A stretch of 29,310 nt of DNA, taken from positions 1 to 29,310 of IMG/VR virus record IMGVR_UViG_3300042402_004741; one strand, written 5' to 3'. This document shows, piece after piece, positions 980-17,860 of this stretch (its first letter is position 1; each line of letters opens with the position of its first letter). Below the pieces are notes generated by a model that saw only the letters and a list, made by a program, of their open reading frames with translations, made no database searches and was not told the origin of the DNA. The DNA is from a virus. The position numbers and the translations under genes were made by a program.

Positions 980-2089
980 ATGAGCCAAGCACAATATAAC
1001 CTATCAACAAAAACAGACTATCTAAACCGCAAGATGTTCTTGGACCCTGCTGGTCCTGTCACAATTCAACGATTTGAAGAAGTCAAGTACAACAAACTTG
1101 TTAAGTTCGAACAAGAGGCACGTGGCTTCTTTTGGATCCCTGAAGAAGTGTCACTCACAAAAGATGCCAACGACTTCAAAGAAGCAAGTGACACTGTGAA
1201 ACACATCTTTACATCAAACTTGTTGCGCCAAACAGCCTTGGACAGTTTACAAGGACGTGGGCCAGCACAGGTGTTTACTCCTGTTGTAGGCATTCCTGAA
1301 CTGGAAGCCTTGATGTACAACTGGAGTTTCTTTGAAACAAACATTCACAGTCGTAGTTACAGCCACATCATTCGCAACATCTACAACGTGCCCAAGGATG
1401 TGTTCAACACCATTCACGACACACAAGAGATTGTGGACATGGCGTCAAGTGTGGGCCGGTACTATGATGATTTACACAAATTAAACTGCATCAAAGAAAC
1501 AGATGACGATCCAAATAATTGTCCAGAAAAGTCACACATCAAGGCCATTTGGTTGGCACTCAACGCCAGCTACGCATTGGAAGCATTCCGCTTCATGGTG
1601 AGTTTCGCCACGTCATTAGCCATGGTTGAAAACCGTATCTTTATTGGCAACGGCAACATCATCAGTCTGATCCTGCAAGATGAAATCCTGCACCGGGACT
1701 GGACTGCCTGGATTATCAATCAAGTTGTTAAAGAAGATCCACGCTTTGCCGCAGCCAAGGTGGAATGTGAAGCCGAAGTGTATCAGATGTACCTGGATGT
1801 TATCCGTGAAGAAAAAGCCTGGGCTGACTATTTGTTCCAGAAAGGTCCTGTGATTGGACTCAATGCACAGATTTTGAAAGACTTTGTGGACTACACAGCA
1901 GTGGGCGCACTCAAAGAGATTGGCATCAAGTACCTGGAACCTGCACCACGCAGCACACCAATCCCTTGGTTCATGAAGCACGTGGACACCAGCAAGAAAC
2001 AATCGGCCTTACAGGAAACAGAGAGTACCAATTATGTTTTGGGAGTTATGTCGGAAGAGTTAGATTACGATGATTTACCTGATCTTTGA
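980..2089 (+). CDS. nrdB: Ribonucleoside-diphosphate reductase, class Ia small subunit
   Basis: Small (beta) subunit of class Ia RNR, 369 residues against 375 in E. coli. It carries the di-iron site and the stable tyrosyl radical. By alignment to E. coli NrdB from memory, the metal ligands are D88, E119, H123, E217, E235 and H238, the radical tyrosine is Y127 (in HSRSY), the electron-relay tryptophan is W52 (GFFWIPEE) and the C-terminal relay tyrosine is Y352. The DYDDLPDL tail fits the peptide that docks on NrdA. One oddity: E119 and H123 are four residues apart (ETNIH), whereas E. coli has three (ETIH), so this metal-ligand helix has a one-residue insertion. A minus-strand homing endonuclease gene runs into its last 44 bp. 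Confidence 0.97.
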
Positions 2090-2735
2090 TCAATGACCAT
2101 CCCTTTACGCTCTTGTACATTGGATGCTGTTTTATTAATCGATTTACTGCACCACTGTCAAGATTGTATGTGGTTCTTAATTCATATTGAGTCATCTTAA
2201 CAGTTTCATTTGTTTTTATATTAACAAAATCGTAGATGGTATGATCATAACAAGTACTTCCAGATCCAGTGTGTAATTTACGATGCAAATCTTTGTTTTT
2301 TTGATTATGCATAGGATTGTCTGGACCAGACATACGTAATTTAGCAGAGAGATTATTACGCCCAGTTAACGATGCACTAGTATTAGGACGTTTTTGTCCT
2401 GTTTGTTTTTGTATATTAATAGCAACTCGATGGGCAATACGTTCTTTTGTTTGCTTTATCCCACATGTTCCGTCCCCGCCATCTGTTTTATTTCGAAGTA
2501 TACCGGTATTGTTGTCCTTGCGACCGTACCAGCGTATCATTCTACGTTCGATCGCCAAGGAACCAATTTCAGATAAATTAGATTCAAGGATAATTATTTT
2601 TGATTTGTCCAGCGGTGGGCGAACTTCGCCTTTTCCCTTTATCCAGGCTCGACGATTTTTACCTTTGCCTATATAATATGGAGTTCCGTCATCGCGTAGA
2701 TATGCATAGACGTAAAAGTTTGTTGTTAAATACAT
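2046..2735 (-). CDS. GIY-YIG homing endonuclease, free-standing
   Basis: Homing endonuclease of 229 residues. The N-terminal GIY-YIG nuclease domain shows [10 protein letters not shown] and [11 protein letters not shown] (residues 8-30) and a downstream catalytic-type Glu in [11 protein letters not shown]. The middle has short NUMOD3-like DNA-binding repeats ([19 protein letters not shown]). The C-terminal part resembles NUMOD1 or a helix-turn-helix ([20 protein letters not shown]). Transcription is opposite to the flanking RNR genes and the last 44 bp overlap the nrdB 3' end. The start at 2735 has a good ribosome binding site (GGGAGGA, minus strand). A late-type promoter and a hairpin lie just upstream. 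It is probably a selfish insertion between nrdB and grx; phage RNR genes are classic homing targets. Confidence 0.9.
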
Positions 2736-2760
2736 TGCTGATGTCCTCCCAGACGTTAGA

Positions 2761-2804
2761 GTAGTTGGATATTACTAGTATCGCGAACTACACTTATATT
2801 TATG
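2761..2804 (-). promoter_or_regulatory. Late-type promoter followed by 5' hairpin (endonuclease leader)
   Basis: On the minus strand CATAAATA (2804 to 2797) matches the T4-type late promoter. Six bases later an inverted repeat begins (GTAGTT, 2791-2786, pairing with AACTAC, 2766-2761) with an inner GATA/TATC helix. The hairpin would form the 5' end of the endonuclease mRNA, ahead of GGGAGGA and the ATG at 2735. T4 homing endonuclease mRNAs are known to be controlled by late promoters and leader hairpins, so the arrangement is plausible. Confidence 0.5.
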
Positions 2805-2819
2805 AAAGAAAACTAAATT

Positions 2820-3044
2820 ATGACAAAAGCGATAATTTGGAGTCGAGACCAATGCGCCTTCTGCGAACAAGCCAAGGGCTTGTTGGAAATGAAAGGCATT
2901 GAATACGAAGTACGCAATATCAGTCAAGACTGGACACGTGAACAATTATTAGAAGCAGTACCAACTGCCAGATCAGTACCACAAATTTTCTTGGATGAAG
3001 AATACGTGGGTGGATTTAACGAACTTAGAAAGAAATTAGCATGA
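2820..3044 (+). CDS. Glutaredoxin
   Basis: Glutaredoxin of 74 residues, within the size range of phage glutaredoxins. It has the dithiol site CAFC at residues 12-15, the SVPQIF cis-proline loop and the YVGGFNEL glutathione-binding segment. It probably re-reduces RNR disulfides with glutathione as reductant. The gene is separated from nrdB only by the homing endonuclease, suggesting the original order nrdA-trx-nrdB-grx. Its stop overlaps the next start as ATGA, so the two genes are translationally coupled. Confidence 0.94.
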   Translation: MTKAIIWSRDQCAFCEQAKGLLEMKGIEYEVRNISQDWTREQLLEAVPTARSVPQIFLDEEYVGGFNELRKKLA

Positions 3045-9587: not shown

Positions 9588-10178
9588 ATGCTAGTCTATA
9601 TACTTGATTTGCCGCCACCTAGTGATTCACTAGTTGCAGAATTTCGCAATTGGGAAAGACATTGTGAGTTATCTGCTTCTAGTAAGCAATGGCTTGATGA
9701 TTTTCACCAAAACAAAATTAATTGTGCAGCACACTGGTTTGGATTAATACCTAATTTAGACGTATTAGTACAAACCGAATACCAACAATACTTTGAACCA
9801 ACTATTTGTGCTGGCGGCGGAATCATGCAGAACTGGGCAACCACTAATGCGGCACAACCGCCACATTCGGACCGTGCAAGAAAGTTAGCAATCAACTGGT
9901 ATTTTGATCTTGGTGGTAATGTAGATACTGTGTTTTACCACGAAAAATCACAAACCAAAAATGAAGCAAAAAATTATCAATACCAAGATGTACACGAACT
10001 AGATCGATATCAATTTTCAAGTAACAATTGGTATGCATATGATATTGACAGATGTCACGCTGTTGAACACATTCAGACTCGTAGAACATTTTTATCTATT
10101 GTCCTAATAGGTGCCATGGACACATTTGGTCTGGAAGAATTAACTAAACAAAGTTCAATTAAATTATTGACAATTTAA
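9588..10178 (+). CDS. 2OG-Fe(II) oxygenase-like protein
   Basis: Protein of 196 residues with the residue pattern of a 2-oxoglutarate/Fe(II) oxygenase: HxD at H93/D95 (PPHSD), a strand-rich segment (KLAINWYFDLGG), a distal H157 (CHAVEH) and R165/R166 that could bind 2-oxoglutarate, before a hydrophobic strand (TFLSIVLIGAMD). Such compact oxygenases are numerous in aquatic T4-like phages and mostly uncharacterised. It is more AT-rich than the genes upstream. A second protein of this type is encoded at 21462. Substrate unknown. Confidence 0.65.
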   Translation: MLVYILDLPPPSDSLVAEFRNWERHCELSASSKQWLDDFHQNKINCAAHWFGLIPNLDVLVQTEYQQYFEPTICAGGGIMQNWATTNAAQPPHSDRARKLAINWYFDLGGNVDTVFYHEKSQTKNEAKNYQYQDVHELDRYQFSSNNWYAYDIDRCHAVEHIQTRRTFLSIVLIGAMDTFGLEELTKQSSIKLLTI

Positions 10179-10195
10179 CGTTTGTGCAGTATAAT
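10167..10195 (+). promoter_or_regulatory. Consensus sigma70 promoter for the structured leader
   Basis: Perfect consensus TTGACA at 10167-10172, a 17-bp spacer and TATAAT at 10190-10195. The -35 box overlaps the 3' end of the preceding gene. Predicted start near 10202, giving a leader of about 190 nt before the next coding region. Confidence 0.9.
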
Positions 10196-10201
10196 CACTG
10201 T

Positions 10202-10393
10202 GCATGATCAGGGAGGTGGGTTGTTTAATGGGTAATTCAGGAAAAGATCTTTAACCGGTCCTGTCTTGTGCCGTGGCATCAGAAACGTAAATCCCGTAGG
10301 ATGAGACACTGTCTAGACCTGGCAACAGGTCAAAACACTGGCTGGTACCCAGTGGAGTATGCCTTGTAGATAAAAACAGTGAGAAGGATAGTA
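10202..10393 (+). ncRNA. Candidate structured RNA leader or small RNA
   Basis: A roughly 190-nt gene-free stretch behind a consensus promoter, unusual in a window where most genes overlap. Hairpins visible by eye, in order: CAGGA/TCCTG, ATCC-CGTA-GGAT, AGAC-ACT-GTCT, GACCTG-GCAA-CAGGTC (6 bp with a GNRA tetraloop) and CACTGG/CCAGTG (6 bp, 7-nt loop). The last three are packed into about 50 nt. It is either a cis-regulatory leader of the downstream genes or a stand-alone small RNA. No tRNA, known riboswitch or ribozyme core was recognised. No clear poly-U terminator lies before the next start. Confidence 0.5.
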
Positions 10394-10711
10394 ATGTCTG
10401 TTGAAATTGAAACCTCTGCGTTGAGCATGTTTGAATCCCTTGACTCTCTTAGATCAACGCCCTTGGTCATGCACCGTATTCAGGTTGAGTTGCGTGATAT
10501 CAAAACATGGTATGCAGTAATACGTGAACTCAATCAAACCTTTGGTGCCAACAACTGGAAGGGCCAAAATCATGTTCGACGTCGCCTGGAAGGCCTGATC
10601 TGGAATACAGATAAAACCATATGGGTTTGGTTTGATGTGCCAGACGTCAAGATTGCCACATGGTTGGCCGTTAAACTAGCCGTCACAGTCCGTATAACAC
10701 CCAATAAATAA
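10394..10711 (+). CDS. Phage protein, unknown
   Basis: Protein of 105 residues, not recognised. The ATG at 10394 has GAGAAGGA six bases upstream and is preferred over a GTG at 10379. Features are an N-terminal acidic stretch, then HRIQVELRDIKTWYAVIREL and IWVWFDVPDVKIATWLAVKL, alternating helix and strand. It sits directly behind the structured leader and 4 nt ahead of a large membrane-protein gene. Confidence 0.78.
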   Translation: MSVEIETSALSMFESLDSLRSTPLVMHRIQVELRDIKTWYAVIRELNQTFGANNWKGQNHVRRRLEGLIWNTDKTIWVWFDVPDVKIATWLAVKLAVTVRITPNK

Positions 10712-10715
10712 ATCT

Positions 10716-12296
10716 ATGTTCCTTAGTTATTTCACATTGTTAACCGCTCTTTCATTGAGCGTGGTTGCGGCCTGGTACAGTATCCTGGGCCTTACTGCTA
10801 TTTTTGCGAGTGCAGTGATTCCCATTATCATCATGGGTGGCATCTTGGAAGTGGCCAAAGTCACTGTCACAGTATGGTTGCATGAATATTGGGACCGTTG
10901 TAGACTGCTGATGAAATTTTATTTGGTGCCTGCTGTGGGCATGCTTATGGTAGTCACGTCAATGGGTATCTTTGGTTTCCTAAGCAAAGCACATTCGGAT
11001 CAAAGTCTAGTGTCAGGTGATGTGTTGGCCAAGATTGCTGTGTACGATGAAAAGATCAAAGTAGCAAAGGACAACATAGATGCCAACCGCAAAGCACTTA
11101 AACAGATGGATGAGGCTGTGGACCAGGTTATGGGCCGAAGCACAGATGAAAAAGGTGCTGACAAAGCAGTTAGTATCCGCAGGGCGCAGACTAAAGAACG
11201 CAATCAACTGCTTGCCGAAATCTCAGCCGAACAGAAAAAGATTACTGCTCTTAATGAAGAACGAGCCCCTATTGCTGCCGAGGTACGCAAGGTGGAGGCA
11301 GAAGTCGGTCCGATAAAATACATTGCGGCTTTTATCTATGGCGATAATCCTGACACCAATGTGTTGGAACGTGCTGTGCGTTGGGTTATTATCATACTTG
11401 TGGTGGTGTTTGATCCACTTGCTATCATGATGGTATTGGCAGCCACAGAGAGCTTGAAGTGGGAACGTGAACGCAGACTGCAACCTACGTATGAAGCCGA
11501 CGATGGTCCATTGACGCCAGCACAAGTTGAACAACTGCGTGAAACTGTAGAACCAGAATTGCCGCAAGGTGAAACGGTCGCTACCAGCCGACTGTTTGAT
11601 GACCCAGGCGAACACCCTGCAGACACATTTGATCACGAAATTGAAGAACCCTTGGCAGTTGATCCACATCCACCAGGCTGGATGTATGGTGACCTAACAT
11701 CAAATCCTCTCAATGAAGCGGAAGTAGAAGAAGTTGTGGCAGAATTTGATCGTGCCAGACATGCATACTTGGACCGGTTTGACCACTTTAAAGATCTTAA
11801 ACCTGTGGTGGCATCACCAGTGTTTAATCAAAACTATTTGAATGCAGTAGCGCAAAATGTTGAACATGATGATCACGACAATCCTAATATCAAAGCCGCT
11901 ATTAAGCAGTGGAAAAGCGAAAACCCTGACAGTACAATAAAAGAAGAACGTATCAAGTTGGCCACTGGTAAAATTGATCAATTACCGTGGATGAAGCTGT
12001 TGGCTGACAATGACTTGGGTAGAGAGCCTAGATCAGGATTTGGCATTGCTTTCCCTGCTGATCCTATCAAAGGCGACACATTCATGCGGGTAGATCAAAT
12101 GCCCAATGTATTATACAAGTTTAATGGTATTCACTGGATCATTGTGGACAAAAATCTAACCGACAACTACACATATGATGATGCATATATTGAGCATTTG
12201 ATTGCCAAACTCACCAGCGGTGAATACGATCCCGACATGTTGAGTGATGCAGAAGCCGATGCTATTGCTCGTCGTGTACGACCCATCAACACATGA
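10716..12296 (+). CDS. Large membrane protein with cytoplasmic coiled coil
   Basis: Protein of 526 residues. Hydrophobic segments lie near residues 5-24, 25-45 and 68-90, then a long charged coiled-coil stretch (about 103-205, KIKVAKDNIDANRKALKQM and similar) and a fourth membrane segment near 221-244 (VIIILVVVFDPLAIMMV). The C-terminal 280 residues are soluble and acidic, with EEPLAVDPHPPGWMYGD and a terminal domain containing VLYKFNGIHWIIVDKN. Proteins with this plan (paired membrane segments around a coiled coil) recur in large phages of aquatic bacteria; no function is known to me. The start has little ribosome binding site and lies just after AATAAATA. Its stop overlaps the epimerase start (ATGA). 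Confidence 0.85.
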   Translation: MFLSYFTLLTALSLSVVAAWYSILGLTAIFASAVIPIIIMGGILEVAKVTVTVWLHEYWDRCRLLMKFYLVPAVGMLMVVTSMGIFGFLSKAHSDQSLVSGDVLAKIAVYDEKIKVAKDNIDANRKALKQMDEAVDQVMGRSTDEKGADKAVSIRRAQTKERNQLLAEISAEQKKITALNEERAPIAAEVRKVEAEVGPIKYIAAFIYGDNPDTNVLERAVRWVIIILVVVFDPLAIMMVLAATESLKWERERRLQPTYEADDGPLTPAQVEQLRETVEPELPQGETVATSRLFDDPGEHPADTFDHEIEEPLAVDPHPPGWMYGDLTSNPLNEAEVEEVVAEFDRARHAYLDRFDHFKDLKPVVASPVFNQNYLNAVAQNVEHDDHDNPNIKAAIKQWKSENPDSTIKEERIKLATGKIDQLPWMKLLADNDLGREPRSGFGIAFPADPIKGDTFMRVDQMPNVLYKFNGIHWIIVDKNLTDNYTYDDAYIEHLIAKLTSGEYDPDMLSDAEADAIARRVRPINT

Positions 12297-13150
12297 TTTT
12301 AGTAACCGGCGATCGCGGCTTTATTGGCAGCGAACTCAAGCAGTATCTCATTGACCAAGGCCATGATGTACACGGGCTTGATTGGGACACACGTGGCCGC
12401 ACATACACTGCAAACACACCCGTAGAATGGATATTCCACATGGGTGCCATCAGCGAAACCAATGCTGACAATTGGGCGGATATTGTGCGCAAGAACATCC
12501 AGGATACACAAGAATGGATCAAAACCGCCGAACGTTGGGGATGTGGCATTACCTATGCATCAAGTGCCAGTATATATGGTCCTTGGTCGAACAGTCCCGA
12601 ATGGGGACCAGTGCAACCACAGCACATGTATGGTGTCAGCAAACTAGCCGTTGACAACTGGTGTGCTGAACAAAACTTCTCTGTGCCGGTGCAAGGCATG
12701 AGATTCTTCAACGTATACGGACGCAACGAATCACACAAACGCCAACCCAGCCCCATACGCACATACATGCGTCAGGCCATTGCAGGTGGTCCACTCACAG
12801 TGTGGAATCACAATGGGCGTTTGGGCACAAGAGATTTTGTCAGTGTAGATGATTGTATCTCGGCAATGATGCAGTTGAAAGCCACAGGCACAAGTGGCGT
12901 GTACAACGTTGGCACCGGCCAACAACTCACTTTTAAAGATATTGCGCACAGCATACAGCGTAGATTTGATAACATACAAGTATTGTCAGAACCCATGCCT
13001 GAGCACATGGTTGAGAAATATCAATGGGAAAGCCGTGCGGATTTAAATAAACTGAGATCTACGATATCGTGGAATCCACAATCAGTGGATCAGTGGCTAG
13101 ACCGCAACTTTGAAACCCTTTACAATAAGATTAAGAATGAAAACACCTGA
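12293..13150 (+). CDS. NAD-dependent nucleotide-sugar epimerase
   Basis: Short-chain dehydrogenase/reductase of the extended epimerase class, 285 residues. The Rossmann motif is TGDRGFIG (5-12), the catalytic Tyr/Lys pair is Y113/K117 in YGVSK, and the helper Ser is in YASSASIYG. The C-terminal substrate domain has FFNVYGRNE and RDFVSVDD. The latter and overall length recall ADP-glycero-mannoheptose 6-epimerase (RfaD), but GDP- or UDP-sugar epimerases are also possible. It is coupled to the membrane-protein gene upstream by ATGA and overlaps clpX by 14 nt. It could modify a phage or host surface glycan. Confidence 0.92.
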   Translation: MILVTGDRGFIGSELKQYLIDQGHDVHGLDWDTRGRTYTANTPVEWIFHMGAISETNADNWADIVRKNIQDTQEWIKTAERWGCGITYASSASIYGPWSNSPEWGPVQPQHMYGVSKLAVDNWCAEQNFSVPVQGMRFFNVYGRNESHKRQPSPIRTYMRQAIAGGPLTVWNHNGRLGTRDFVSVDDCISAMMQLKATGTSGVYNVGTGQQLTFKDIAHSIQRRFDNIQVLSEPMPEHMVEKYQWESRADLNKLRSTISWNPQSVDQWLDRNFETLYNKIKNENT

Positions 13151-14348
13151 AACCCTAGACAACTGTAGTTTTTGCGGCAAACACAAAGATTCAGTGGCCA
13201 AACTTATTGTGGGCAGCGAAGTCTCAATCTGCAATGAGTGTGTGGATCTTTGCCAGACTTTGCTCAAAGATGAACTGCCAGTCAAGGCCAAAGACGCCTC
13301 AGATGAGACTCTGGATCCCAGAGCCATCAAAGAGCACTTGGATCAGTATGTGATTGGGCAGAGTCATGCCAAAATGGTGTTGAGTGTGGCCATTGCCAAT
13401 CACTACAAACGCATTGCCAATGCTGATCCTGATACCGAAATTGAAAAAGCCAACATCCTCATGCTTGGTCCCACAGGCTCAGGCAAAACCTTGCTGGCTC
13501 GCACAGTGGCACGTTATTTGGATGTGCCCTTTGTGATTGCCGATGCCACAAGCCTAACTGAAGCAGGGTATGTGGGCGATGATGTTGAGAGTTTGATCAC
13601 ACGATTGTTTACAGCCGCAGGTGGCGACGTAGAAAAAACACAACGTGGTATTGTGTTTATTGACGAGATCGACAAGATCAGTCGCCGCAGCGAGAGTGCC
13701 AGTATCACCCGGGATGTATCAGGTGAAGGTGTGCAACAAGCCTTGCTCAAGTTGGTGGAAGGTACCAAGTGCAGAATTACTCCACAAGGCGGCCGCAAGC
13801 ATCCTGCGGGCGAAACTGTGGAAATTGACACAGCCAACATCTTATTCATTGCCGGCGGGGCATTTGTTGGACTAGACAACATTGTGAAAAGCCGTGTCAA
13901 AGGAACCTCAATTGGATTCTCGGCACAGGTAGTAGCAGACAACACCAGCGTTACCTTGGATAAAACCACACCTGAAGACTTGATCCGCTTTGGTATGATT
14001 CCTGAATTTGTGGGACGTTTCCCCAGTTGGGTAGCCTTGGCAGAGCTCAGCAAAGCAGACTTGGTACGCATCCTACAGGATGTCAAGCACAGCTATGTCA
14101 GTCAGTACCAATGGATATTCAAACGTGATCAAGTTGAATTAGAATTCAGTCCTGACAGCTTGGACTTGATCGCAGAACGCACCATTACCAACAAAACTGG
14201 CGCTCGTGGCTTGCATTCAGAACTTGAACGTGTGTTGTTGCCGCACATGTACAACTTGGCCCGTTATCGCACACATGGTATTCGCACCGTTTCTATTGAC
14301 ACTCAGCAGGTAAATATTCCTGAGGAGCTCAAAGAGATAAATGAATAA
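13137..14348 (+). CDS. clpX: ClpX, AAA+ unfoldase of ClpXP
   Basis: Complete ClpX of 403 residues (E. coli 424). It unfolds substrates and feeds them to ClpP. The N-terminal zinc domain has C10/C13 and C32/C35. Walker A is GPTGSGKT (111-118), pore-1 loop GYVG (144-147), Walker B IVFIDEID (172-179) and pore-2 RKH (220-222). The IGF loop that docks on ClpP is kept at 259-261, and the arginine finger (GRFP) and sensor 2 (TGARGL) are present, so an active ClpP-binding motor is expected. The start at 13137 matches the family N-terminus; an in-frame ATG at 13110 would extend further into the epimerase. A phage ClpP is encoded at 28423 and a ClpS at 17546. Confidence 0.97.
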   Translation: MKTPETLDNCSFCGKHKDSVAKLIVGSEVSICNECVDLCQTLLKDELPVKAKDASDETLDPRAIKEHLDQYVIGQSHAKMVLSVAIANHYKRIANADPDTEIEKANILMLGPTGSGKTLLARTVARYLDVPFVIADATSLTEAGYVGDDVESLITRLFTAAGGDVEKTQRGIVFIDEIDKISRRSESASITRDVSGEGVQQALLKLVEGTKCRITPQGGRKHPAGETVEIDTANILFIAGGAFVGLDNIVKSRVKGTSIGFSAQVVADNTSVTLDKTTPEDLIRFGMIPEFVGRFPSWVALAELSKADLVRILQDVKHSYVSQYQWIFKRDQVELEFSPDSLDLIAERTITNKTGARGLHSELERVLLPHMYNLARYRTHGIRTVSIDTQQVNIPEELKEINE

Positions 14349-14565
14349 ATCACGTGCAAGATCAGTATTAGTCCAAGACGGTAATGTAGAAAAAGCCCTG
14401 CGCAAGTTCAAGAAAAAAGTACAAAATTCCGGCATACTAAACGATCTTAGAGAACGTGAATTCTACATCAAGCCCACAACTGCTAGAAAACTCCAACGCA
14501 GTGCAGCCAAGAATCGCTGGCGCAAACAACTAGAATCCCAACAACTTCCTCCACGCACCTACTGA
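14341..14565 (+). CDS. rpsU: Ribosomal protein bS21 homologue
   Basis: Protein of 74 residues matching bacterial bS21 along its length: VEKALRKFKKKVQNSGIL corresponds to the VALRRFKRACEKAGVL helix, LREREFYIKPTTARK to the LRRREFYEKPTAERK segment, followed by a basic tail. bS21 binds the 30S platform near the anti-Shine-Dalgarno and affects initiation. bS21 homologues are among the few ribosomal proteins known from phage genomes, where they probably replace host bS21 and bias ribosomes to phage mRNA. It overlaps the clpX end by 8 nt and the next gene by 1 nt. Confidence 0.93.
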   Translation: MNKSRARSVLVQDGNVEKALRKFKKKVQNSGILNDLREREFYIKPTTARKLQRSAAKNRWRKQLESQQLPPRTY

Positions 14566-14831
14566 TGTACATTGAGTTTGACTTGCTGTCAGATGTTGAC
14601 ATGGCACCAGGACACCGAGCCAGTACCAACCTAAAAATTATACAAGATGCAATGAATTCTTGGGGTGACCGATACAGCATACAATTTCGGGAAAAAACTA
14701 TAAAATACAAATACCGCGTTACTTTTGATCATGATGAGTCCTATACATTTTGGGCCATGTCATGGAACCCTGAACAAAACAAAGTTCTCGCCCAATATCG
14801 CATTGTGTCTGACCTAAATCACAAAATATAA
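14565..14831 (+). CDS. Phage protein, unknown
   Basis: Protein of 88 residues, not recognised. It starts MYIEFDLLSDVD, has a helical segment (NLKIIQDAMNSWGDRY) and then paired strands with aromatic residues (YKYRVTFDHDESYTFWAMSW), giving the look of a small alpha/beta domain. It overlaps the bS21 stop by one base and ends just ahead of the late promoter of the groES leader, so it probably closes the epimerase-clpX-bS21 operon. Confidence 0.78.
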   Translation: MYIEFDLLSDVDMAPGHRASTNLKIIQDAMNSWGDRYSIQFREKTIKYKYRVTFDHDESYTFWAMSWNPEQNKVLAQYRIVSDLNHKI

Positions 14832-14847
14832 TTGAGATTTGTAGTAT

Positions 14848-14855
14848 AATAAATA
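14848..14855 (+). promoter_or_regulatory. Late promoter upstream of groES-groEL
   Basis: AATAAATA, the T4-type late promoter core, followed after 4 bases by the conserved leader hairpin. A TATAAT overlaps at 14845-14850, but no -35 is correctly spaced: the only candidate (TTGAGA) is 7 bp away. A late promoter is therefore the better reading. Confidence 0.65.
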
Positions 14856-14859
14856 CTGT

Positions 14860-14898
14860 TGTAGTGCCCATGGTGGGGCTACACTCGTTAACTTGCTT
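14860..14898 (+). other. Conserved leader RNA element, copy A (groES-groEL)
   Basis: Hairpin: TGTAG (14860-14864) pairs with CTACA (14879-14883); then a T14865-G14878 wobble, an unpaired G14866, CCCA (14867-14870) pairing with TGGG (14874-14877) and a TGG loop (14871-14873). Six bases later comes AACTTGCTT (14890-14898), followed by AAAAGAAG and an ATG at 14909. The hairpin plan and the AACTTGCTT string are shared with copies at 16972 and 25236, with compensatory differences in the stems. Confidence 0.75.
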
Positions 14899-14908
14899 GC
14901 AAAAGAAG

Positions 14909-15013
14909 ATGACACTATCTAAAAACTCTCGTTTACTTGAATCCACTATCTTTACTGGCCAAGTTACGTATTTTTTACGTAATGTTGTTCTATTTTCAAG
15001 CATTTCACATTGA
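14909..15013 (+). CDS. Small ORF between the leader and groES
   Basis: ORF of 34 codons starting MTLSKNSRLLESTIF, with a hydrophobic C-terminal half (VTYFLRNVVLFSSI). Its ATG lies just after AACTTGCTT and AAAAGAAG, the position occupied by hsp20 and phasin behind the other two leader copies, which is the main support. It ends 12 nt before the groES ATG. It may be a leader peptide coupling translation into groES, or a small membrane peptide. Confidence 0.45.
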   Translation: MTLSKNSRLLESTIFTGQVTYFLRNVVLFSSISH

Positions 15014-15025
15014 TAGGAAAAAATC

Positions 15026-16947
<1,922 letters not shown>

Positions 16948-16948
16948 T

Positions 16949-16965
16949 TGACAGTTAAACTGTCA
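16949..16965 (+). repeat. Inverted repeat after groEL, overlapping a late promoter
   Basis: TGACAGT (16949-16955), TAA, ACTGTCA (16959-16965), starting two bases after the groEL stop. There is no T-run, so it is a weak terminator candidate at best. Its right arm shares two bases with the hsp20 late promoter. Confidence 0.5.
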
Positions 16966-16971
16966 TAAATA
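16964..16971 (+). promoter_or_regulatory. Late promoter upstream of hsp20
   Basis: CATAAATA, one base off the T4 late consensus TATAAATA, immediately followed by the conserved leader hairpin. No sigma70 boxes with good spacing were seen. Confidence 0.7.
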
Positions 16972-17021
16972 TGTGTGCGGGTGCCAATGGTTGGGCTCGC
17001 ACACAATTAGTCAACTTGCTT
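16972..17021 (+). other. Conserved leader RNA element, copy B (hsp20)
   Basis: The longest and cleanest copy. The outer stem pairs 16972-16981 with 16996-17005 (mostly Watson-Crick, TGTGTGCG with CGCACA). Above it are a T16982-G16995 wobble, an unpaired G16983, CCAA (16984-16987) pairing with TTGG (16991-16994), and a TGG loop (16988-16990). Seven bases later AACTTGCTT (17013-17021) leads into AAAAAGGAG and the hsp20 ATG. The wobble, bulged G and loop are the same as in copy A, while stem bases differ in a compensated way. Confidence 0.8.
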
Positions 17022-17037
17022 AAAAAGGAGAAATGAC

Positions 17038-17481
17038 ATGACTAAAACCTTGACTCTTCGTTCATTCGATATCCCACAACTTCACAAATTCGGCATTGGG
17101 TTTGACAGCCTGTTTGATGACCTCCAACGTTTTGCCAACCAAGGCACAAACAATTATCCTCCACATAACGTGATCAAAACTGGTGAACACACAGTCACAA
17201 TCGAAGTTGCTGTGGCAGGCTTTGCCGAAGGCGAAATTGATATTCAGATGAACAAACGTGCCCTCGTAATCAAAGGCGAACAAAAACGCAACGACGATGA
17301 AACTTGGGAATATCTGCATCGCGGTATTTCTAGCCGTGATTTTACTCACTCATTTACTTTGGCTGATCATGTTGAAGTAAAAAGTGCCAGCATAGTTGAT
17401 GGTATTTTGCGTGTGTATCTAGAACGACAAGTTCCAGAAGAAGCAAAGCCAAAAAGCATTGCTATCACTTACAACAAGTAA
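17038..17481 (+). CDS. Hsp20/IbpA-type small heat shock protein
   Basis: Small heat shock protein of 147 residues, an ATP-independent holdase. The alpha-crystallin domain runs from about residue 40 to 130: YPPHNVIKTGEHTVTIEVAVAGF near its start, LVIKGEQ, YLHRGISSRDFTHSFTLAD, and the closing GILRVYLER. The C-terminal SIAIT serves as the IxI-type oligomerisation motif. The sequence is close to IbpA/IbpB. Hsp20 genes are common in aquatic T4-like phages. It has its own late promoter and structured leader. Confidence 0.95.
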   Translation: MTKTLTLRSFDIPQLHKFGIGFDSLFDDLQRFANQGTNNYPPHNVIKTGEHTVTIEVAVAGFAEGEIDIQMNKRALVIKGEQKRNDDETWEYLHRGISSRDFTHSFTLADHVEVKSASIVDGILRVYLERQVPEEAKPKSIAITYNK

Positions 17482-17495
17482 TATAATTACAATTG

Positions 17496-17527
17496 TGTAA
17501 ATACAGTGGCAGACAGTCTGCCACTGT
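17496..17527 (+). promoter_or_regulatory. Late-type promoter and 5' hairpin of clpS
   Basis: TGTAAATA at 17496-17503 resembles a late promoter. It runs directly into a perfect 11-bp hairpin (ACAGTGGCAGA 17503-17513, loop CAG, TCTGCCACTGT 17517-17527). No T-run follows, which argues against a terminator and for a 5'-end hairpin of the clpS message. Confidence 0.55.
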
Positions 17528-17545
17528 AGATTTCAAGGATTCATC

Positions 17546-17860
17546 ATGGCCCAAAGTGAAGTAAAAAATAAAATTCGTCCAGTAGAAGGTATCAAAGAAC
17601 CCAGCCAGTTCAAAGTGATCTATCTCAATGACAATGCAACGACCATGGAGTTTGTGGTAGAAAGTTTGGTTGAATATTTTAATTATACACCCGATACTGC
17701 TAGACAAATTACCATTGACATTCACGAAGAAGGTAGTGCAGTGGTTGCTGTGTTACCTTTTGAAATTGCTGAACAAAAAGGTCACGAAATCACACAGTTG
17801 GCCCGTGCCAATAGCTATCCGTTGTTGATAAAGCTTGAACCTGAAGAAGTTAATACGTAA
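17546..17860 (+). CDS. clpS: ClpS, N-degron adaptor
   Basis: ClpS of 104 residues. ClpS binds proteins with N-terminal Leu, Phe, Tyr or Trp and hands them to ClpAP. The binding pocket is intact: N28-D29 (in YLNDN), the gatekeeper M34 (TTMEFV) and H60 (DIHEEG), matching N34/D35, M40 and H66 of E. coli. The N-terminal extension of about 20 residues is present. No ClpA is encoded in this window, so it would work with host ClpA or compete with host ClpS. The phasing after hsp20 and groEL suggests late expression. Its last 11 bp overlap the convergent phosphoesterase gene. Confidence 0.95.
   Translation: MAQSEVKNKIRPVEGIKEPSQFKVIYLNDNATTMEFVVESLVEYFNYTPDTARQITIDIHEEGSAVVAVLPFEIAEQKGHEITQLARANSYPLLIKLEPEEVNT

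Follow-up and report, generated by a model that had tools for sequence, protein, structure and literature searches.

A conserved pseudoknotted RNA enclosing the start of a phage gene, a possible cis-acting element of translational control

The locus

The stretch of DNA analysed here (the window) is IMGVR_UViG_3300042402_004741, a record of 29,310 bases from an uncultured virus, and its subject is a structured RNA that begins just downstream of a strong promoter and ends within the gene of a basic protein of 105 amino acids (aa). The preceding gene stops at 10178 and the following start codon lies at 10394. An examination of the letters alone (the sequence-only reading) had found no convincing gene in about 190 nucleotides (nt) after the promoter and had described this region as ending in three hairpins; a check of the open reading frames (ORFs) of the window likewise shows no convincing gene between 10179 and 10393. 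The structured RNA has stood. Its extent has given way to a closed structure of about 271 nt, which runs to about 10474, some 80 nt into the 105-aa gene. The main features are as follows.

10167 to 10195, + strand: consensus sigma-70 promoter TTGACA-17-TATAAT, a 12/12 match, kept in relatives
10202 to 10472, + strand: complete structured RNA of about 271 nt, whose two ends pair to close it (66-pair structure, 45 relatives)
10394 to 10711, + strand: gene of the 105-aa basic protein, codons 1-28 in or beside the RNA
10716 to 12296, + strand: gene of a 526-aa membrane protein, second gene of the operon, with weak DUF4407 similarity

In the first 20 kb, the part scanned, 59 sites resemble promoters, and this one alone matches at 12/12. 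At the same spot, 70 of 93 distinct relatives score 12/12 and 85 of 93 at least 10/12, a score that is reached at 0.9% of random places. This match and its conservation support the earlier proposal that a strong TTGACA-17-TATAAT promoter drives a structured RNA. The distance from the end of the -10 box to a conserved GCA is exactly 6 nt in 66 of the 93 relatives, and the transcript is therefore predicted to start at about 10202, at or near the first base of the fold. A terminator scan gave no + strand site near 10474.

Covariation of the fold

The stability of the window sequence on its own is unremarkable, and the case for the fold rests on comparison; single-sequence folding energy was set aside as uninformative, with z of -0.24 for 10200-10393 and -1.53 for 10202-10474. 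The 66 proposed pairs were counted on A5, a MAFFT alignment of 45 relatives built without structure information. Standard pairs occupy 93.1% of cells (66 pairs, 45 relatives); sliding the partner by 1-3 columns lowers this to 30-43%. Two-sided compensatory changes are found in 45 of the 66 pairs. None of 500 shuffles attained any of the five measures used, a comparison in which relatedness is removed by the slid controls and not by the shuffles, and in which the structure itself was partly read from the same sequences.

An unbiased scan of all column pairs placed at its top the 12-bp helix formed by 10202-10213 and 10461-10472 (Pc), and it also recovered three helices of the coding region (P8, P9, and P10). 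RNAalifold, from alignments alone, predicted P0, P1, P2, H5, and H6 on one alignment and Pc, P1, P9, P10, and P8 on the other. Pc, P9, P3, and P10 can be written, with strands picked by eye, for most of the most divergent relatives. Based on these comparisons the conserved fold is well supported, and it is from this fold that a function and a trigger are proposed below.

Anatomy of the RNA

The architecture consists of two three-way junctions and a pseudoknot, with 13 helices. Its elements, in order along the transcript, are listed here with the fraction of A5 cells paired unless another alignment is named.

10202 to 10213, + strand: 5' strand of the closing helix Pc, pairs with 10461-10472; top match of the unbiased scan
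10218 to 10295, + strand: 5' arm P0-P1-P2 (covariation; RNAalifold)
10218-10221 with 10291-10295, + strand: P0, 88% paired
10223-10226 with 10283-10286, + strand: P1, 97.8% paired
10228-10241 with 10260-10274, + strand: P2, of which P2a 97.8% and P2b 78% paired
10275 to 10278, + strand: pseudoknot (PK1) strand GGCA, bulging from the 3' side of the 5' arm, 98.1% paired
10303-10306 with 10445-10448, + strand: P9, closing the inner three-way junction, 100% paired
10307 to 10381, + strand: P3 domain, enclosing H5 and H6 (covariation)
10307-10311 with 10377-10381, + strand: P3a, 86.7% paired (A5), 93.7% in a model-based alignment
10312-10315 with 10367-10370, + strand: P3b, 77.8% paired (A5), 84.6% in the model-based alignment
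10316 to 10331, + strand: hairpin H5, GACCTG-GCAA-CAGGTC with a GNRA loop, two-sided change in 5/6 pairs
10336 to 10354, + strand: hairpin H6, loop CUGGUAC, 95.4% paired
10360 to 10363, + strand: pseudoknot partner UGCC (DNA TGCC), covarying with GGCA
10382 to 10399, + strand: single-stranded 18-nt linker between P3 and P10, with Shine-Dalgarno AGAAGGA and AUG at 10394-10396
10400 to 10444, + strand: P10 enclosing P8, in codons 3-17 (RNAalifold alone; A5 count)
10400-10404 with 10440-10444, + strand: P10, 99.1% paired
10410-10413 with 10429-10432, + strand: P8, 97.8% paired
10461 to 10472, + strand: 3' strand of Pc, within codons 23-27 of the 105-aa gene (all-pair scan, A5 count)

Pc has 12 pairs, with 97.8% of cells paired and two-sided change in 8 pairs, and further variants of it occur in other relatives. 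A purine-rich linker joins its 5' strand to the 5' arm, a further linker leads from the arm to the 5' strand of P9, and the linker UUAGAUCAACGC lies between the 3' strand of P9 and the 3' strand of Pc. The pseudoknot played no part in model building; its GGCA/UGCC pairing is replaced by GGCU/AGCC in one set of relatives and by AGCA/UGCU in another. P9 likewise appears as GAGA/UCUC, GCGA/UCGC, and other versions, with GUGG/CCAC and GCGG/CCGC in divergent relatives. Many invariant unpaired bases surround the junctions and the pseudoknot. The GNRA hairpin at 10316-10331 and the second hairpin at 10336-10354, both proposed from the sequence alone, are real and covary in relatives; had they not been conserved there, the earlier proposal was to be given up.

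A motif GGAG(G/A)U at 10210-10217 is kept in most relatives with no conserved start codon after it. Several other candidates in this region did not survive comparison. A helix between this motif and the conserved ACCUCU of codons 7-8 could form in the window but is lost in many relatives, and it was dropped. The hairpin AUCC-CGUA-GGAU (10291-10302), a first idea, was superseded by the covarying P0. A leader peptide from AUG 10228 was also rejected, as this AUG belongs to P2 and two relatives, L024 and L032, lack it (L numbers denote individual relatives).

Start region and coding constraint

P9 lies directly against both P3 and P10, which means that the start codon sits in the only long linker of the three-way junction. 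The AUG of this linker is invariant in 45/45 aligned relatives. In four divergent relatives (L058, L069, L054, and L073) a start codon, AUG or GUG, is kept in the linker and opens a short ORF only, which overlaps the real start or stops just before it. The retention of a start codon with such short ORFs suggests that ribosomes do initiate within this RNA.

The choice among synonymous codons is nearly fixed in codons 1-28, a strong constraint (for instance, Leu19 is CUU in 49/49, Thr22 is ACG in 49/49, and Ser8 is UCU in 33/33), and codons from 29 onward vary freely. The same codon is used for the same amino acid in 73% of comparisons within codons 1-28, compared with 51% after them (Mann-Whitney p 1e-7 over columns, indicative given that the sequences are related). 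This constraint arises because the long-range pairing uses coding bases.

Distribution and linkage to the 105-aa gene

Searches with the two downstream proteins retrieved 31 and 80 loci. In most of these the region 5' of the 105-aa gene, which it directly precedes, is conserved; close relatives are 78-95% identical there, distant relatives about 69-77%. R1, a covariance model covering the first two thirds of the RNA, matched the RNA with E-values down to 1e-39, and gave one strong copy per record in 15 of 20 large records. Two of the five large records without an R1 match (L073 and L093) hold a divergent version that R1 scores poorly. Further contigs were found by DNA-pattern scans of viral contigs, and by hand count the RNA is present on about 140 distinct uncultured phage contigs, several of them above 200 kb and the largest of 364 kb. 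Among 84,980 bacterial and archaeal genomes scanned there were five exact pattern matches, none of them backed by the RNA model.

The 105-aa gene follows every pattern-located copy that has enough downstream sequence. Apparent copies without the gene were discounted, as they carry its codons and the gene had been missed where the frame is open further upstream; the exception is L140, in which the sequence is cut off. In L095-L097 the protein is present without its N-terminal extension and without a detected RNA. No homologue of the 105-aa protein was found in isolated phages, and the searched stretches of XacN1 and Mosig contain a relative of the membrane protein only.

The downstream proteins

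The 105-aa protein has an isoelectric point of 9.5-9.9. The window protein has no Pfam or PHROG match. No family or fold could be assigned, except that 12 of 46 members weakly match phrog_5720, a phage family without a name (best E 1e-4). In the AlphaFold model (pLDDT, the predicted local distance difference test, 82) a core of residues 27-101 is confident and the N-terminus dictated by the RNA is not; a fold search with this model gave no match at E 0.001 or better. The 526-aa membrane protein matches PF14362 (DUF4407) with E 4e-4, under the curated cut-off, and has relatives in several large phages. In L103, at about 2000-3000, an endonuclease-like ORF appears by eye to split the 105-aa gene from the membrane-protein gene.

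Possible functions

Initiation signals conserved inside a conserved fold, constraint that extends through codon 28, and linkage to a single gene argue for translational control in cis. The RNA element would control the 105-aa gene and, through it, the DUF4407-like membrane-protein gene, a reading to which we give about an even chance, and a riboregulator of the membrane-protein operon, as proposed from the sequence alone, is the best reading of these data. According to this model, the message would start at 10202 from a strong host-type promoter, and its first 271 nt would form a closed fold with a pseudoknot, in which the Shine-Dalgarno sequence and start codon lie in the 18-nt linker between P3 and P10 and much of codons 3-27 is tied up in P10, P8, P9, and Pc. 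In the folded state a 30S subunit could reach the linker and could not thread the mRNA, so that initiation would be slow or trapped. A ribosome that did initiate would unfold P10, P8, P9, and Pc as it read codons 1-27. The simplest trigger, which is a guess, would be autogenous: the basic 105-aa product could bind and stabilize the fold, giving negative feedback. We infer that the RNA adopts this fold in the cell, that translation is held back by it, and what keeps it stable.

Some observations weigh against translational control by this element. P3b and P2b are paired in no more than 78% of cells. In computed stability, the nested consensus fold falls short of the optimum by about 15 kcal/mol in the window and 28 kcal/mol at the median, so that the fold would need its pseudoknot, tertiary contacts, or a binder; this gap fits a switch and is no proof of one. 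Charge is the sole hint of RNA binding by the 105-aa protein, for which there is no fold match. Finally, the same covariation would be produced by a free RNA that overlaps the gene.

Such a separate functional RNA is the main rival to control in cis. It would act in trans, possibly within a particle whose other half is the 105-aa protein, and the overlap would follow from the compactness of the genome. The strong promoter is predicted to start transcription exactly at the terminal helix, and the RNA has a promoter of its own, as would be expected of free-standing phage RNAs or ribonucleoproteins (RNPs) of the ROOL, GOLLD, and HEARO kind. The closed, pseudoknotted fold of about 271 nt resembles stable RNAs, the neighboring protein is basic, and L095-L097, as described above, lack the N-terminal extension and a detected RNA together. 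Large phage RNAs of unknown function do exist (ROOL, GOLLD; PMC12286853). However, the closing helix takes its 3' strand from coding sequence and no terminator was found, the Shine-Dalgarno sequence and start codon are conserved inside the fold, and the RNA is linked to one gene in every copy examined. A free RNA is distinctly less probable than control in cis. The earlier suggestion of a small RNA released from the leader finds no support, as the scan gave no terminator and the 3' strand of Pc is coding. A further proposal is a large phage RNA of a new class, active in its own right (as an RNP with the 105-aa protein, catalytic, or acting on the ribosome), which is unfolded and switched off when the overlapping N-terminal extension is translated, such that one molecule alternates between functional RNA and mRNA; we regard it as doubtful.

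Riboswitch classes usually control several kinds of genes. In all copies examined, this RNA precedes one and the same gene rather than several unrelated ones, and it matches no Rfam riboswitch. Control by a small molecule, instead of the gene product, that would turn translation off or on by binding to the conserved core is unlikely, even with the many invariant unpaired bases at the junctions and pseudoknot and a fold that seems to require an extra stabilizer. A paired 5' end generally slows RNase E-type decay, and the first base of the transcript is paired in Pc, which would suit a structural 5' end that stabilizes the message or recruits ribosomes without regulation. For that purpose a plain hairpin would suffice, with no need for 13 helices, a pseudoknot, or a constraint that reaches codon 28; this explanation appears quite improbable. 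The compact pseudoknotted core with its invariant unpaired bases could also recall a self-cleaving or processing ribozyme. There is, however, no ribozyme family match, and cleavage within or at the end of the fold would take the start codon away from the gene. The second in-frame AUG of other relatives is CUA in L073. A ribozyme is very improbable.

No database family covers this class of RNA, which is of a complexity unusual in phage mRNAs and occurs in uncultured phages that include contigs above 200 kb. If translational control is correct, a phage operon would be run by an RNA that encloses a start codon and not by promoter and repressor alone, and the N-terminus of the gene itself would be written to serve the RNA. 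If the RNA is free, it would join the few large phage RNAs of unknown function. Under either reading, the covarying pairs indicate which mutants to test.

Other features of the window

A match to the ROSE_3 thermometer (RF02523, 20.3 bits) lies at 16974-17043, directly 5' of an Hsp20-like gene (17038), and relatives have matches at L093:5981-6045 (36.7 bits), L055:6140-6204 (33.8 bits), and L061:6143-6206 (26.1 bits). All four score below the gathering score of 43; from their recurrence, these phages may carry a heat-shock thermometer. The Hsp20-like gene is part of a host-like chaperone, protease, and translation cluster at 13110-17860 (ClpX-like, bS21, GroES-like, GroEL-like, Hsp20-like, and ClpS-like), whose genes were named by eye except for bS21 (PF01165 match). 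At 2046-2735 on the minus strand, a GIY-YIG-like homing endonuclease ORF was noted by eye between nrdB-like and glutaredoxin-like genes.

Comparison with known RNAs

Rfam 15 (4227 models) at curated thresholds gave no match in the window, and permissive scans of the window and 18 relatives gave no credible match to the RNA region, with chance-level unrelated matches in the window. Riboswitch models, cobalamin included, gave none at E up to 10 (window and nine divergent relatives) or at E up to 1 (nine others). A cobalamin-like look-alike (GUAAAUCC..GACACUGU) and a group-I-like look-alike, both noticed by eye, were dropped, having no match at permissive thresholds. The RNA is not described in the open-access papers searched, a set outside which most subscription papers and all bioRxiv preprints fall.

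Like metabolite riboswitches (e.g., cobalamin), the phage RNA has a terminal helix, junctions, a pseudoknot, and invariant unpaired bases; it differs from them in its one-gene distribution and in the lack of an Rfam match. ROOL and GOLLD are often near tRNA islands, whereas the window has no tRNA. These two are large, ornate, pseudoknotted phage RNAs of unknown function (PMC12286853). The RNA described here is also large and pseudoknotted, but it has no Rfam match to them, a gene begins within it, and it is linked to that gene.

As in autoregulatory leaders of start regions, a conserved pseudoknotted fold includes the Shine-Dalgarno sequence and start codon. In the S15 and S4 leaders, a pseudoknot that takes in the start region holds the 30S subunit trapped (PMC10931766). 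In Escherichia coli rpsO (S15), a pseudoknotted leader embraces the Shine-Dalgarno sequence and start codon and controls initiation (PMC10931766), and the phage fold is alike in enclosing the start. On the other hand, the phage RNA has 13 helices and about 271 nt, reaches codon 27, precedes a gene for another product, and shows no sequence match to rpsO. For the E. coli alpha-operon (S4) pseudoknot, the proposed likeness is entrapment of the 30S subunit (PMC10931766), although the phage fold is much larger and closed by the 5' end of the transcript, and its gene is unrelated, with no ribosomal protein seen. The phage RNA belongs to neither leader family, as the genes downstream are those of an unclassified 105-aa protein and a DUF4407-like protein and no sequence match exists. 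By analogy, the S15 and S4 leaders would nevertheless be the closest working analogues, and the phage RNA may work like them.
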